The notes below the pieces were generated by a model. It was not told where the DNA came from, did not search any database, and was given only the letters and a program-made list of their open reading frames with translations. Shown piece after piece: positions 10,138 to 60,913 of a stretch of 64,000 bases of DNA. Location: the NCBI RefSeq assembly GCF_000017565.1, contig NC_009719.1, forward strand, positions 2,339,001 to 2,403,000, in the 5' to 3' direction. A program made the position numbers and the translations under genes. The first letter of the stretch is position 1. Every line of letters begins with the position of its first letter. Source of the stretch: Parvibaculum lavamentivorans DS-1. GTDB taxonomy: Bacteria; Pseudomonadota; Alphaproteobacteria; Parvibaculales; Parvibaculaceae.

Positions 10138-12240
10138 ATGCTGAAGTCCTGGCGGCGCCGGATCGCGTTCATTTTCCTCATGCTGCTTGCCCTGGCGGGT
10201 GCGGCCGCAGTCTATGTCTGGATTGAACGCGCTTCGCTCGCGGAAAAGGTTATCGGGCGCGTATTAGCGGCGCGTGGTATTGCCCCCGTTTCCTTCAGTG
10301 TCGGTTTCATCGGCTTCCGGAGCATTTCGCTTTACGACATCGTAGTGGGTGAGCCCGAGGATCCGGATGCCGAGGCTGACAGCATCACCATCGCCTATGC
10401 GCCAGGCGAGTTGCTTTCCGGCAGTGTCCGTTCAATTGAAGTCGGTGAATTGAAGCTCCGGGCCAAAGTGGCAGATGGGGAGCTTTCGCTCGGCGCGCTC
10501 GATCCGTTACTCGCAGGTGAGGGCGGAGGAGGGGCATTTGAGGTGCCGCCTGCTCAAATCGAAAACATCCTTGGCAGGCTTGAGACGAGCGCCGGCACAT
10601 TTCTCTTGAGCGGTGCTCTGGACATCCGGCCGGAAGGAGAGGGGCTTCTTGCATCCACGGATGCGCTTGAGATTGCGGAGACCGTGGGGCCGCCGCGCTT
10701 TGCACCGATCATCCTGTCGGGCGTCTTGAAGCTCGATAAGGGAATGATGTCATTCGACGCCGCCGCCGCGATCGCGCGGCCGGACGCCTCGCCCGTTCCG
10801 ATTCTTCAAGCCGAAGGCAGCTACGACACGGCGGACAAATCCGGCAGTGCAGTCGCCAAGGGAGCCGTATCATTCACGGAAGGTGGCGTTACGCCGGCAA
10901 CCTTGTCGCCGATGCTCGAGCGCTTCTATCTCGATATCGAAGGGAGGGTGTCCTATCGGGCGGATATTGAAGTTGTCTCGGGCAGAGCGGAGGTTGCCGC
11001 AGAAGCCGATCTCGACAGGTTGTCGCTCAGGCAGACGGCTGCGGGCTCGGCCGTTTTTTCGGGGCCAGTCCGGTTCTCTACGGTTCTTGGCGGGGCAGAT
11101 GGCAGCGAGGCCTCGCCGCTTCGCGTCGAACTCGATGCCGTTCGGGTCGAGGATCTTGCGAGGCCCAACCGCTTCGCACCGCTTACGATAGAGGGGCCTA
11201 TCGAATTTCTGCAGCCTGTCCTTAGCGCCCGTCTGATTGCGCGCAGCGCGTTACCTGCAATTCGCGGTGCGAGGCTGGGCGAGCTGACGGCGCAATACGA
11301 TATAGCGGCCGGGAAGGGGAATTTGCGCGCGAGCGGCAATCTGGAGTTCGCGCCCGGGCGGCTTGAGCTTCAGACCGTCCTGCCTTTGCTTCGAGGCAGT
11401 GTCACGCGCATGAGCGGCAAGATGAGTTACACGGCCGAGGCCACACTCTCTGATCGCGGCGTGACAAGTTCTGCGCGGGCAACGGTGTCCAATCTCGGTT
11501 TTGTCACAACCGCGGCCACCGCGGAAGGCGTCGAAGGGAATGTGCGTCTCGCAAGCCTCTTGCCGCTGCGGACCCAAGGCGTTCAAACGCTACGGATAAA
11601 ACGACTCCAGGCCGGGGTGCCCCTTTCCGACGGGGCGATCTCATTTGACTTCAACAGGGAAGGTTTGAGACTTGTCGACGCGACATGGCCGTTTGCCAAG
11701 GGGAAACTCATATTGGTTTCATCGGGGGGAGCGATCACGGCGTCCAATGCGGAGTTCATCCTGACTGTTCAGGATATCGACCTTGCAGCACTTATTGAAC
11801 TTGTCGAGGTGCCGGGGCTGAGGGCGACAGGCCACATCAGCGGAAAGGTTCCGGTAGCTATCCGGAACGGCGATCCAATTCTGCTCGATGGAAAAGTGGC
11901 GGCGCAGGATGATGGCATCATAACTTACAAGAGCGCCGCTACAGATGCCGCACCTACCGAGCAGACAAAACTTCTCACCGATGCCTTGCGCAACTTTCAT
12001 TACACGGAGCTATCTGGCGGCTTGTCCGGCAATGCGAACGGAGATCTTGTTCTGGCGCTTGCGTTGCGCGGTGCCAATCCGGACCTCTATGACGGATATC
12101 CGTTCGCCATCAATGTGAAGCTGGAAGGATCGCTTGCGGAAGTATTGCGACGTGGTACCGTTGGCTTCAGTCCCATTGAGCTTATCAAACAGGAGCCGGA
12201 GCCGGCGTTGACGCCTCCTGCCAAAAAGATGGAGCCATGA
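10138..12240 (+). CDS. ydbH: YdbH family intermembrane phospholipid transport protein
   Basis: A 700-residue AsmA-like protein with one N-terminal membrane anchor (residues about 10-30), then a long periplasmic region of beta-rich repeats. The C-terminal segment is the YdbH signature, including the FHYTELSGGLSGNANGDLVLALALRGANPDLYDGYPFAINVKLEGSL region. In E. coli YdbH, together with YhdP and TamB, forms a groove carrying phospholipids from inner to outer membrane. It overlaps ynbE by 4 nt (ATGA), and ydbL follows 8 bp later. The three-gene order matches E. coli ydbH-ynbE-ydbL. It is a little shorter than the E. coli protein (879 aa). Confidence 0.87.
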   Translation: MLKSWRRRIAFIFLMLLALAGAAAVYVWIERASLAEKVIGRVLAARGIAPVSFSVGFIGFRSISLYDIVVGEPEDPDAEADSITIAYAPGELLSGSVRSIEVGELKLRAKVADGELSLGALDPLLAGEGGGGAFEVPPAQIENILGRLETSAGTFLLSGALDIRPEGEGLLASTDALEIAETVGPPRFAPIILSGVLKLDKGMMSFDAAAAIARPDASPVPILQAEGSYDTADKSGSAVAKGAVSFTEGGVTPATLSPMLERFYLDIEGRVSYRADIEVVSGRAEVAAEADLDRLSLRQTAAGSAVFSGPVRFSTVLGGADGSEASPLRVELDAVRVEDLARPNRFAPLTIEGPIEFLQPVLSARLIARSALPAIRGARLGELTAQYDIAAGKGNLRASGNLEFAPGRLELQTVLPLLRGSVTRMSGKMSYTAEATLSDRGVTSSARATVSNLGFVTTAATAEGVEGNVRLASLLPLRTQGVQTLRIKRLQAGVPLSDGAISFDFNREGLRLVDATWPFAKGKLILVSSGGAITASNAEFILTVQDIDLAALIELVEVPGLRATGHISGKVPVAIRNGDPILLDGKVAAQDDGIITYKSAATDAAPTEQTKLLTDALRNFHYTELSGGLSGNANGDLVLALALRGANPDLYDGYPFAINVKLEGSLAEVLRRGTVGFSPIELIKQEPEPALTPPAKKMEP

Positions 12241-57630: not shown

Positions 57631-58563
57631 ATGGCAGTCGATCTCAATGGCTATGCGGTTTATGCCAAGGTCGTGGAGCTTGGCGGTTTCACCGCCGCCG
57701 CCGATGCGCTGGGCCTTTCCAAATCCATGGTCAGCCGCCATGTGGCGACGCTGGAAGATGAACTCGGCGTCCGCCTGCTGAACCGCACCACGCGGCGCAT
57801 CAGTGTGACCGAGGCGGGAGGGGTGGTGTTCGAGCGTGCCCAGCGGATCGTCGCGGAGGCGGCGGAGGCGGCAAACGAGGCCACCTGCGTCGAGGGCGCG
57901 GTGCGCGGCCTTCTCAGGGTCAACGCGCCGATGACCTTCGGTATCCGGCAGCTCGGGCCGGTCATGCCGGAATTTCTCGCCCGATATCCCGATCTCAATG
58001 TCGACCTTACGCTCAATGACAGACGTGTCGATCTCATAGAGGAAGGTTTCGACGTAAGCTTGCGCGTTTCGGCGCTTACGGATTCAAGCCTGATCGCCCG
58101 GCAGCTCGCGCCGGTGGAGCGGCATATCGTCGGCGCGCCCGGCTATTTCGAGAAGCATGGCGTGCCGAAAAGCCCCACCGATCTCGCGGGCCATGATTTC
58201 CTGCTCTACACGCTGCTTGCGCGGCCGACGCATCTGGAAATGACGCATGAGGACGGGCGGCGCGAACAAGTGGAAGTGAAGGGCCGCATGTTCTGCAACA
58301 ATGCAGACGCGATGCTGGAGACGATTGCCGCCGGGGCGGGCCTTGCGCTGCTGCCGGATTTCATCGGCTGCGACCATATGAAGAGCCGCGCGTTTGTCCG
58401 CGTGCTGGAAGACTGGTCGATGCCGCCGCTGACGCTGCATGTCCTCTATCCGCATTCCCGCCACCTGCCCGCGAAGGTGAGGGCTTTCGTGGATTTCGCG
58501 GTGGAGAAGTTCGGACCGGGGAAGGCGCCTTGGGGGGCGGAGTATGAGATGTTCACTTTTTAA
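57631..58563 (+). CDS. LysR family transcriptional regulator
   Basis: A 310-residue LysR-type regulator. The N-terminal helix-turn-helix FTAAADALGLSKSMVSRHVATLEDELGVRLLNRTTRR spans about residues 18-55. The C-terminal domain is an effector-binding periplasmic-protein fold (DLTLNDRRVDLIEEGFDVSLRV and on). It is divergent from wrbA across a 118-bp gap (57513-57630), the typical layout for control of the neighbour. The gap has a CCTGA/TCAGG half-palindrome pair as a candidate site. The inducer is unknown. Confidence 0.92.
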   Translation: MAVDLNGYAVYAKVVELGGFTAAADALGLSKSMVSRHVATLEDELGVRLLNRTTRRISVTEAGGVVFERAQRIVAEAAEAANEATCVEGAVRGLLRVNAPMTFGIRQLGPVMPEFLARYPDLNVDLTLNDRRVDLIEEGFDVSLRVSALTDSSLIARQLAPVERHIVGAPGYFEKHGVPKSPTDLAGHDFLLYTLLARPTHLEMTHEDGRREQVEVKGRMFCNNADAMLETIAAGAGLALLPDFIGCDHMKSRAFVRVLEDWSMPPLTLHVLYPHSRHLPAKVRAFVDFAVEKFGPGKAPWGAEYEMFTF

Positions 58564-58575
58564 AATGTCAAAGTC

Positions 58576-59880
58576 CTATTCTTTTCCTTCCCAAAAAGTT
58601 TTGAAGTCGGAATGGAAATATTTTTGTGTCATCTCATCAATGTCCACCAAGTCGTCGGAATTTGTATCCTTCCCCATGCCTGAATGAGCGCTTTCGACTA
58701 AGAACTTATAAGTGTTAGAGGCGGAAGCTAGGGAGACAAATTCATATCCGACGCGGGCAAACAAGATTCGAGAAATGCCCAAGAGCGTTTGGCTTTCTTT
58801 GTGGCTAAACTGAAAAATGGTAGGAGCTATGGCGTTAAAAGTAACGCGCCATCCGGGCATTTCTAGCATTTTTCCGAAATGGCCGACATCGACAGACACA
58901 ACCAAAATCAGGTTGCCGATAACGAAATCGAAAAGATGTTGGGCCTCACGAATTGTCAAAGTGAATGGCATGTAAGGCGCCCAATCGAAGTCGTTCTTCG
59001 CCTCATTGAGAATAAACACTATCGTTTTGTCGGCTTGTTCTAGCGACCAAATTTTAGAGAAGTCCGGCGTTCCTCCGTATACTGCAAGATATGTCAGTCC
59101 CGCCTCCGGTTGCGCTGCGCAATATCCGTTCCGTTTGGCCTCTCTTATGAAACTGTTGAGCTGATCTAGGTGCGTGACTTCGTCTGGAGGAGCGGCGCGT
59201 CTTGTTTTTCCTGGCTGGCCGCGAAAATTCAGAGCTTCGTCTGTCTCTAAGAAGAGATGAATCTGTGCAATTGCTTCAGATTGCCGCTTGGTTCGCTGAT
59301 TGTGAGCACGCCCCGACTTCACTTCCAGCAAGTAGGGATCGTTCGTTCCAAGTAAGCATATGTCACCATGTCTCAATGTATTAGTGATGTCGCACAAAAC
59401 AGCTGGCAAGCCGTGTTCAAAGGCGAGTTCCAGAATCTCGAGTTCTTTTTTCAGGCCAGCCTTGCCGTGGATCATTCCAGCTGTGAGTTTAGGTTCATAA
59501 TTTCTGGTATCAAAAAATGCGTGCTTCATTGAGAACTTGGAGATGTAGAGGTACGCAAGCCCATCGCCGAAGCTCTTCCAAATGAAAATACGATATCTGC
59601 AGGCTTCAATGCATTTATCAATTCTTTCAATTTTTTCTAGAAGCGACGCTGCGACACCTTTTGAATGTCGCCCCGTCTTTCGAGCCTTATTGGCTGCAAG
59701 ACGCATAGTTTTGAATCGCGTCTGGAGCTTTTCAGTTTTTACAATTTCCCCGAGAATGAAGTAATTCAGTTCTTTGACTACGCTAACCTCTAAAGGTTCA
59801 GCTTCAATCGTCCTGAGAAGCTTGACCGCTTTGAAGAATGAGGATGCATATTGGCCAACATTTGGCGTGTTGTGTGACAT
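58576..59880 (-). CDS. Orphan AT-rich gene with PD-(D/E)XK-like nuclease signature
   Basis: A 434-residue protein from the ATG at 59880. By eye its GC content is about 45% in sampled lines, clearly below its neighbours, and codon choice differs. No close family is recognised. A probable nuclease core lies at residues about 170-200: D173 in RHGDICLL, E186 and K188 in LLEVKSGR, and Q200 in RTKRQ, resembling D-x(n)-E-x-K of PD-(D/E)XK enzymes. Residues 100-170 (FGDGLAYLYISKFSMKHAFFD; HGKAGLKKELEILELAFEHG) may complete the fold. The C-terminal half is unassigned. It is alone, tail to tail with lysR by 12 bp. A horizontally gained defence or restriction-type gene is one possibility. Confidence 0.6.
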   Translation of the reverse strand: MSHNTPNVGQYASSFFKAVKLLRTIEAEPLEVSVVKELNYFILGEIVKTEKLQTRFKTMRLAANKARKTGRHSKGVAASLLEKIERIDKCIEACRYRIFIWKSFGDGLAYLYISKFSMKHAFFDTRNYEPKLTAGMIHGKAGLKKELEILELAFEHGLPAVLCDITNTLRHGDICLLGTNDPYLLEVKSGRAHNQRTKRQSEAIAQIHLFLETDEALNFRGQPGKTRRAAPPDEVTHLDQLNSFIREAKRNGYCAAQPEAGLTYLAVYGGTPDFSKIWSLEQADKTIVFILNEAKNDFDWAPYMPFTLTIREAQHLFDFVIGNLILVVSVDVGHFGKMLEMPGWRVTFNAIAPTIFQFSHKESQTLLGISRILFARVGYEFVSLASASNTYKFLVESAHSGMGKDTNSDDLVDIDEMTQKYFHSDFKTFWEGKE

Positions 59881-59945
59881 CTGCGAGGCCGTATGTGACT
59901 TGGCTGAGGCATTGGTGATGAAATGCGAAACTAACGGATCATCAC

Positions 59946-59976
59946 AAAAAAAGGCGGACCATGTAGTCCGCCTTTT
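59946..59976 (-). terminator. Terminator of the SDR gene
   Basis: Arms AAAAGGCGGAC/GTCCGCCTTTT enclose a 6-nt loop. On the minus strand the stem is followed by seven T. It ends SDR transcripts and marks the boundary with the AT-rich gene. Confidence 0.93.
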
Positions 59977-59998: not shown

Positions 59999-60913
59999 TT
60001 ACACCGGTTCCCAGGTGAACACGGCGCCGGTTGCGCCGAGGTCGGTGTAGCCGCCTTCCATGGCGGGGAAGGCGTGGGAGAGGATGGTTTCCGGGGTCCA
60101 GCCGTCGATGCGGGCGACGGACTTGACGGGGCGGGGCTGCGAGAAGAGCACCAGCTCATTGCCGCGCACGGCGAAGATCTGGCCGTTGGCGGTGCAGCTC
60201 GGCGCGGCGAGGGCGACGGCGAAATTGCCGACCTGTTCGGCGCGCATCGCATTCTTCATGCGCTCGACGCGCTTTGCCGACGTTTCGTCCTTCACCGGAA
60301 TGGTGGCGATCATGCGCGTCCAGGCGAAGGGCGCGATGATGTTGGAGCGGACGTTCTTTGCCGCGCCTTCCATCGCGATGATGCGCGAGAGGCCGGCAAT
60401 GCCCATCTTCGCGGCGGCGTAGTTCGCCTGGCCGATATTGCCGATGAGGCCGGAGGTCGAGGTGAAGAGGACGAAATTGCCTTCTTCCTTTTCGCGGAAA
60501 TGATTGATCGCCGCGCGGGTGATGTTGTAGCTGCCCTTCAGATGGACTTCGAGAACGGCGTCCCAGTCCTCGTCCGGCATCTTGTGGAACATGCCGTCGC
60601 GGAGAATGCCGGCCGGGCTGATGATGGAGTGAAGGCCGCCGAAGGTGTCGAGCGCCTGGGCGATCATGTTTTCCGCGCCGGACTTCATCGAGACGCTGTC
60701 GGAATTGGCGACGGCTTCGCCGCCCGCCTTCTTGATTTCATCGACGGTCTTCTGCGCGGCGCTCGCATCGCCCGCATCGCCGCCCTTCACGCTGCCGCCG
60801 AGATCGTTCACGACGACTTTCGCGCCCTGCGCCGCCGCGATCAGCGCGCATTCCCTGCCGATGCCGCCGGCCGCGCCGGTGACGAGTACGACCTTGCCTT
60901 CCAGAAGTCCCAT
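59999..60913 (-). CDS. Short-chain dehydrogenase/reductase (MFE-2-like)
   Basis: A 304-residue SDR. The NAD-binding loop TGAAGGIGRECA lies at residues 12-23. The usual NNAG motif is replaced by SPAG in HSIISPAGILRDGM. The catalytic TSTSGL and YAAAK follow. VVVNDLGGSVKG and KGSYNITRA match the 3-hydroxyacyl-CoA dehydrogenase domain of multifunctional enzyme 2. The ATG at 60913 has GGGAGAA upstream. It may act on hydroxyacyl-CoA or steroids. A C-terminal stretch after about 255 has no known domain but includes GWTPETILSHAFPAMEGG. Confidence 0.85.
   Translation of the reverse strand: MGLLEGKVVLVTGAAGGIGRECALIAAAQGAKVVVNDLGGSVKGGDAGDASAAQKTVDEIKKAGGEAVANSDSVSMKSGAENMIAQALDTFGGLHSIISPAGILRDGMFHKMPDEDWDAVLEVHLKGSYNITRAAINHFREKEEGNFVLFTSTSGLIGNIGQANYAAAKMGIAGLSRIIAMEGAAKNVRSNIIAPFAWTRMIATIPVKDETSAKRVERMKNAMRAEQVGNFAVALAAPSCTANGQIFAVRGNELVLFSQPRPVKSVARIDGWTPETILSHAFPAMEGGYTDLGATGAVFTWEPV

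Follow-up and report, generated by a model that had tools for sequence, protein, structure and literature searches.

A predicted PD-(D/E)XK nuclease gene of the PHROG 14906 family has been gained by Parvibaculum lavamentivorans DS-1 as a small foreign cassette between a LysR gene and an SDR gene, and relatives of the gene are carried as cargo by P2-like prophages and P4-like satellites and in defence islands. The gene product is probably a single-protein PD-(D/E)XK nuclease carried by mobile elements and bacteria against competing phages or invading DNA. Judging from the invariant residues and the structural models, the nuclease fold is very likely; judging from the location of the relatives, an action of the predicted nuclease in defence against phages or rival elements is likely. 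The window is the whole stretch of DNA analysed here, 64,000 nucleotides in length, and positions are counted from its first letter. The features of the locus are as follows.

57631–58563, plus strand: LysR-type regulator gene, the left neighbour, with its final codons inside the cassette
58549–59946, no strand: gained cassette, ~1,398 bp, delimited by the end and restart of similarity to relatives
58576–59880, minus strand: predicted PD-(D/E)XK nuclease gene, PHROG 14906 family, 434 aa (ORF and profile match)
58669–59061, minus strand: predicted C-terminal alpha/beta part, residues 274–404 (AlphaFold2 model)
59203–59454, minus strand: predicted nuclease core, residues 143–226, with a helix, three strands, a helix, and strands (models and structural re-alignment)
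59281–59283, minus strand: Q200, invariant, second core helix (alignment and model)
59317–59325, minus strand: E186-V-K188, with E and K invariant (alignment)
59362–59364, minus strand: D173, invariant, within R-H-G-D (alignment)
59443–59445, minus strand: E146, invariant, first core helix (alignment and model)
59521–59859, minus strand: predicted N-terminal helical bundle, residues 8–120 (AlphaFold2 model)
59949–59976, no strand: terminator-like hairpin that belongs to the SDR gene and lies beyond the cassette, where the similarity to relatives starts

The nuclease gene starts with the ATG at 59880, and the resulting length is similar to that of the relatives in the alignment. The open reading frame and the numbering of D173, E186-V-K188, and Q200 given in the original prediction are correct. 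The gene is convergent with the LysR gene and has the same direction as the SDR-type gene, which ends at 59999 on the minus strand. The types of the two flanking genes are assigned from their sequence and agree with the original prediction. The nuclease gene stands behind the terminator-like hairpin of the SDR gene, which has 11 pairs and is the longer of two terminator-like sites in the scan, a number that is no excess over shuffled sequences (1.9). No clear ribosome-binding site is seen ahead of the nuclease ORF, and no promoter-like site is found in its 66-bp leader. The leader also contains an inverted repeat at the right edge of the cassette (59912–59948; 10-nt arms, 90% complementary, 17 nt between them), which is possibly an operator or a cassette end.

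The base composition of the gene differs from that of its surroundings, as predicted. In a comparison with the 49 other window ORFs of at least 150 aa, picked by a longest-first rule, its GC content of 0.457 is the lowest of the 50 (others: mean 0.613, sd 0.032, minimum 0.552), and its GC3 of 0.485 is also the lowest (others: mean 0.679, sd 0.068, minimum 0.507). The deviation in codon use is milder than claimed: synonymous-codon likelihood ranks the gene fourth most atypical of the 50. Among the family loci, the GC content of the gene is below that of the locus in 33 of 35 and equal to it at two decimals in two; the family gene of L094 (genome G635) likewise shows no deviation.

Comparison with relatives confirms the predicted horizontal gain. 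The nuclease gene is single-copy in its own genome, the only one of 98 near genomes that has it; it is absent from all 97 others, 26 of the same genus, and is not vertically conserved in close relatives. With the own genome included in both counts, the PHROG profile has a match in one of 385 genomes of the class, and the family alignment search has a match in two of 398 genomes of the phylum. Of the 27 genomes of the genus, counting its own, 26 have a match to the SDR end, which is nearly full length in 22, and 25 have a match to the LysR protein under the strict limit applied. We compare 18 junctions, from 21 relatives with a near-full SDR match. Both sides match the window in all 18, and none has room for the nuclease gene; the flanks are joined, with an unmatched stretch of 7–766 bp between them (7–11 bp in L073, L074, and L075). 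The window is similar to relatives up to 58548 on the left (L076 and L077) and again from 59947 onwards on the right (L074, L075, L078, L079, and L081). Therefore, ~1,398 bp came in. As to a target-site duplication, the cassette ends share only 6-bp repeats and none longer.

In three relatives (L078, genome G010; L080, G023; L081, G009), the slot between the LysR and SDR genes contains a RelE-type toxin gene with an HTH partner. The toxin matches PF06296 with E values of 1.4e-36 and 1.6e-34 in the two cases tested, and that of L081 is assigned by 92% DNA identity to L080. Because the toxin/HTH pair fills the slot in relatives, the junction takes small foreign cassettes, and the slot presents a lone, putatively defence-type gene moving without an adjoining integrase. 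The window locus is not a defence island, because its flanking genes are ordinary and PADLOC recognises no system there: the scan of the 60 other window ORFs matches four models, of mad2 and RtcR types, and no recognised multi-gene defence system. One of these ORFs matches the RtcR CARF-AAA-HTH models strongly (best E 2.5e-115) and may be an ordinary sigma-54 regulator.

The original prediction regarded the gene as an orphan. This description has to be dropped, as the protein belongs to a family. Residues 18–385 match positions 19–386 of the 429-position profile of PHROG 14906 (E 7.3e-57), a viral protein family annotated as of unknown function and the sole profile match of the window protein. 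Pfam, PADLOC, and NCBIfam give no match to the single protein up to E 10. When 34 members are used, Pfam returns 22 families at E ≤ 1, each matched by one or two members and mostly of coiled-coil types. The best of these matches (PF17082, Spc29; 3e-4, one member) and a match to the restriction enzyme family SmaI (PF17411; 0.1, one member) are treated as chance. Sequence searches of the PDB return unrelated molecules, with best E values of 1.3 for the protein, 0.27 for the family profile, and 0.69 for the core profile.

Scanning the genomes and viral contigs with the single protein finds no relative, whereas alignment-based searches find 25 loci in the genome collection and 12 in the viral contigs. 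In addition, tblastn finds three records in the plasmid collection, one of which is a chromosome-sized Klebsiella record, and blastn with the Klebsiella copy finds 27 of 5,426 complete E. coli genomes; all these counts are lower bounds, because the searches are limited by pattern or similarity. No match to the family is found among 50,697 phage records. Among the papers searched, none contains ‘phrog_14906’ or ‘WP_000742539’, and none of the matches listed describes the family. The hosts of the members belong to Pseudomonadota, Nitrospinota, and Verrucomicrobiota. The Pantoea and Achromobacter proteins are 83–88% identical; barring contamination of the Achromobacter assembly, this suggests that the gene has moved from one class to another. 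L029 and L030 are one stretch on two contigs of the same assembly, and contamination of that assembly is possible.

The family alignment has 34 rows, comprising 29 of the 35 search loci, the window protein, L004, L006, L009, and L011. L030 (the duplicate of L029), L039, L040, L044, L046, and L048 are left out; the split or shortened L002, L003, L012, and L013 stand outside it, and L028 (247 aa) is included. The aligned members are 23–39% identical to the window protein (n = 34). The tree, which leaves out L030, L040, and every locus from annotated records, puts the window protein on a long end branch, the placement of which it does not settle.

A foreign composition, a single copy, and no partner are what a decaying remnant or non-functional passenger would show, and some relatives are split (L002, L003, and L013) or cut short (L012 and L028). 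However, the window copy is full length and keeps every invariant residue, and the family is under purifying selection in most pairs of relatives: dN/dS is computable for 12 of 13 pairs; 11 of these have values of 0.06–0.25, and the remaining pair, which is near-identical, has 0.58, with several dS values close to saturation. A remnant is thus highly improbable.

The invariant residues, together with the structural re-alignment, the scores of which are weak, make the assignment of the protein to the PD-(D/E)XK group very likely. Sixteen positions are invariant in all 34 aligned members, including E146, D173, E186, K188, R196, and Q200, indicating that the PD-(D/E)XK-like motif of the original prediction is more than chance. 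L092, L093, and L094 have the same R-H/Y-G-D...E-x-K...Q string. Invariance and the model strongly support E146, D173, E186, K188, and Q200 as the predicted active site.

In the full-length AlphaFold2 model (31 sequences; pLDDT 87.1, pTM 0.87), long helices at residues 8–112 precede the core, which comprises a helix (143–155), strands (160–162, 174–176, and 183–185), a helix (195–213), and strands (215–219 and 222–226); further strands and helices extend to residue 405. The predicted core thus has the alpha-beta-beta-beta-alpha-beta order and carries the D...E-x-K motif. Strand pairing in the DSSP string suggests that D173 lies opposite E186 in a predicted hairpin, in line with the proximity that a PD-(D/E)XK site calls for. 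With the whole model, Foldseek finds no match at E ≤ 0.001 in the PDB or among viral models. The re-aligned list for the whole model is filled by the helical bundle; therefore, the core is folded and searched alone. The core-alone model (pLDDT 77.6, pTM 0.66) also has no Foldseek match at E ≤ 0.001. After re-alignment of 310 Foldseek core candidates, 13 of the 20 matches listed are Holliday-junction resolvases by title, and structural families outside these 20 are possible as well. The best re-aligned structure is the resolvase 1gef (Z 4.4, rmsd 3.1, 69 aligned), a weak score with Z under 5. The other entries among the 20 are Hna, TnsA, AF1548, and SPO1766, which we take to be PD-(D/E)XK proteins, and three with Z of 2.6 or less. 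PD-(D/E)XK proteins are the sole coherent re-aligned group, at low Z, and the models point to this fold rather than to a non-nuclease fold.

The relatives occupy recurrent places in mobile elements. Eight of the 27 E. coli matches were opened: three are in P4-like satellites, four in P2-like prophages, and one in a P2 remnant. The satellite copies (H4, H6, and H12; L006, L007, and L013) lie at tRNA-Sec, between the polarity suppression gene psu and the end with small genes and the integrase, and that of L013 is split into two ORFs. The prophage copies (H14, H15, H28, and H30; L008–L011) lie between the replication endonuclease gene (gpA) and the portal gene, and the shortened remnant copy (H29; L012) adjoins the portal gene. 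Across 41 loci, nine (L008, L009, L011, L039, L043, L044, L046, L047, and L048) have P2-type neighbour clusters with replication endonuclease, terminase, scaffold, and capsid genes. An integrase gene and tRNA-Sec are also close to the split copy in Klebsiella (L003) and to the Pluralibacter copy (L033).

Some neighbouring genes are observations in their own right. In L006, the family gene is separated from the P4-like integrase gene by one encoding a 457-aa protein with no Pfam, PHROG, or PADLOC match (L006:10407–11780). In the viral contigs L092 (6563–9263) and L093 (2576–4101), the family gene starts ~100–160 bp past a tRNA-Met gene, and in L092 a gene that looks by eye like an integrase lies across the tRNA-Met gene from it.

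Other relatives adjoin known defence genes. In L015, GajA (E 1.6e-51) and GajB (E 2.3e-25) genes found by PADLOC lie directly upstream of the family gene on the same strand. The order GajA, GajB, family gene (L015:4818–9284) is possibly a Gabija variant with an extra nuclease. In L017, the family gene directly follows a PtuA/PDC-M01A gene (E 1.4e-149 and 6.5e-174), and an HNH-looking gene is also present by eye. In L004, it adjoins MkoA (E 0), with MkoB (E 1.1e-106) and GajA (E 1.8e-238) beyond. This region of the Rhizobium leguminosarum plasmid pRlBT01d (L004:3258–15871) also contains a nucleotidyltransferase plus HEPN gene, which together with GajA, MkoB, MkoA, and the family gene makes up a plasmid defence island within 13 kb. 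MkoA/MkoB-type neighbours recur in L036. At 1e-8, PADLOC matches 229 models (the first 25 listed) among 150 neighbour ORFs versus 4 among the 60 window ORFs, a rough control because many alternative GajA models fall on the same few proteins. When 10 chosen neighbours are checked, five match defence models; neighbour genes are taken by simple ORF rules, so some are not real genes. The single-gene defence idea of the original prediction draws its support from these locations, as the comparison of neighbourhoods finds hotspots and defence genes there. The expectation of defence islands holds at the relatives, but no defence gene adjoins the copy in the window.

Alternatively, the protein might serve mobile elements in recombination or repair, as a nuclease that resolves Holliday junctions or processes ends and thereby helps its carrier to replicate or integrate. 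The nearest folds, at low Z, are Hjc resolvases, and many carriers are phages or satellites. However, the gene lies among the interchangeable cargo of the P2-like and P4-like elements rather than among their replication genes, and other copies, in islands and plasmids, have Gabija, Mokosh, or Septu-like genes as neighbours. In addition, its frequency in E. coli is too low for a housekeeping function of the element, and the resolvase model PF01870 is absent from the Pfam matches of the 34 members at E ≤ 1. We therefore consider this alternative unlikely.

According to Rousset et al. 2022 (PMC9122126), the P2 gpA-gpQ and P4 psu-int positions are hotspots of anti-phage systems, and non-defence cargo is named at both. 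Four systems at the same P2 position are reported by Vassallo et al. 2022 (PMC9519451). Suicide logic is common in the same hotspots (PMC9122126), which suits another alternative, a suicide effector for abortive infection: a nuclease that is inactive until triggered by a phage and then destroys the host cell by cleaving its DNA or RNA. The RelE-type toxin with its HTH partner in the same chromosomal slot of relatives also suits it, and a gene for a conserved protein of ~190 aa that immediately precedes the nuclease gene in three loci (L016:7302–7862, L020:7392–7991, and L041:1–558) could be a control partner. In L028 this gene is ~2 kb away (11069–11584), and its protein has no Pfam or PHROG match in the two loci tested (L016 and L020). 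The two genes are possibly a two-gene version. However, the ~190-aa gene is missing from most loci (tblastn matches in four only) and is rejected as a fixed partner, and no antitoxin-like gene adjoins the window copy. A suicide effector accordingly has only a small probability.

Neither a methyltransferase gene nor an antitoxin-like gene adjoins the window copy, the neighbours of which are the LysR and SDR genes. Type II restriction-modification is rejected for the window gene, beside which the companion methyltransferase is not present, a result that applies to the window copy. Type IV-like restriction enzymes have a PD-(D/E)XK core and extra domains, with no methyltransferase alongside. The window protein has the same look, with a predicted core, extra parts, and no methyltransferase, and might be a modification-dependent enzyme of this kind that cuts only modified foreign DNA. 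Nevertheless, Pfam recognises no reader domain in the 34 members, and we give this possibility little weight.

We favour defence by a single protein. As no methyltransferase or antitoxin gene stands next to the window copy, distinguishing self from non-self must fall to the protein alone; either its trigger or its substrate would have to be specific to phages for self-harm to be avoided. The most likely course is that a phage-specific state, for example modified DNA, a DNA end, branched DNA from replication, or a phage protein, would be recognised by the helical bundle together with the C-terminal part, which would then free the resolvase-like core or guide it to its cut in DNA. Since the core looks like a resolvase, the branched DNA that arises when phages replicate is one candidate substrate, although likeness of fold is no proof. 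The weak Z values, the lack of a significant Foldseek match, the lack of matches in phage records, the non-defence cargo in the P2 and P4 hotspots, the lack of a fixed sensor partner, the ordinary surroundings of the window copy, and the leader in which no promoter-like site is found count against this explanation. More tentatively, the protein may be a one-protein immune system of new architecture, in which a helical sensor bundle, a Holliday-resolvase-like nuclease, and a C-terminal reader would cut branched intermediates or ends of invading phage or plasmid DNA without a modification partner, and which would move as nothing more than a 1.4-kb cassette, entering a chromosomal slot that is open to toxin-antitoxin pairs as well. 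If the nuclease is active, tools built on the Pfam, NCBIfam, and PADLOC libraries miss it, and it would add a methylase-independent, resolvase-like nuclease to the known weapons against phages. Because it is a small system of one gene that E. coli prophages already carry, it is directly testable for activity in a laboratory strain.

Compared with known systems, the window protein is by sequence a true member of PHROG 14906; the window copy is chromosomal and has no visible adjoining phage genes. Its predicted core resembles the Hjc resolvases, the top group in the core re-alignment. The spacing of E...D...E-x-K is 27, 13, and 2 residues in the window protein, similar to the 24, 13, and 2 of Hjc. 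In contrast, the Hjc model PF01870 is a single domain of 93 positions, whereas the window protein has 434 aa with two extra parts. Single-gene PD-(D/E)XK defence proteins such as Shedu exist, and the window protein shares with Shedu-type defence the one gene, the predicted PD-(D/E)XK-type nuclease, and defence surroundings, the last seen at the relatives. PADLOC matches no family up to E 10, and no Shedu-type model is among the 22 Pfam families matched.

Both hotspots and single-gene PD-(D/E)XK defence as a kind are thus already known, and the family itself is unnamed and has no assigned function. The hotspot systems of PMC9122126 have the same two insertion places as the relatives, and no mention of the nuclease family is found in the passages searched. 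In the E. coli P2 loci, the family gene lies among three domain-less genes, which encode a 243-aa protein, the family protein, and a 61-aa protein. The 243-aa gene (251 aa as ORF) is rejected as a fixed partner, as the P2-like L043 and L047 lack a counterpart and its cluster comprises six loci. A three-gene system that protects against P1 is described in PMC9122126, and the three domain-less genes could be that system. In that case, the literature already covers part of the function for the E. coli P2 version.
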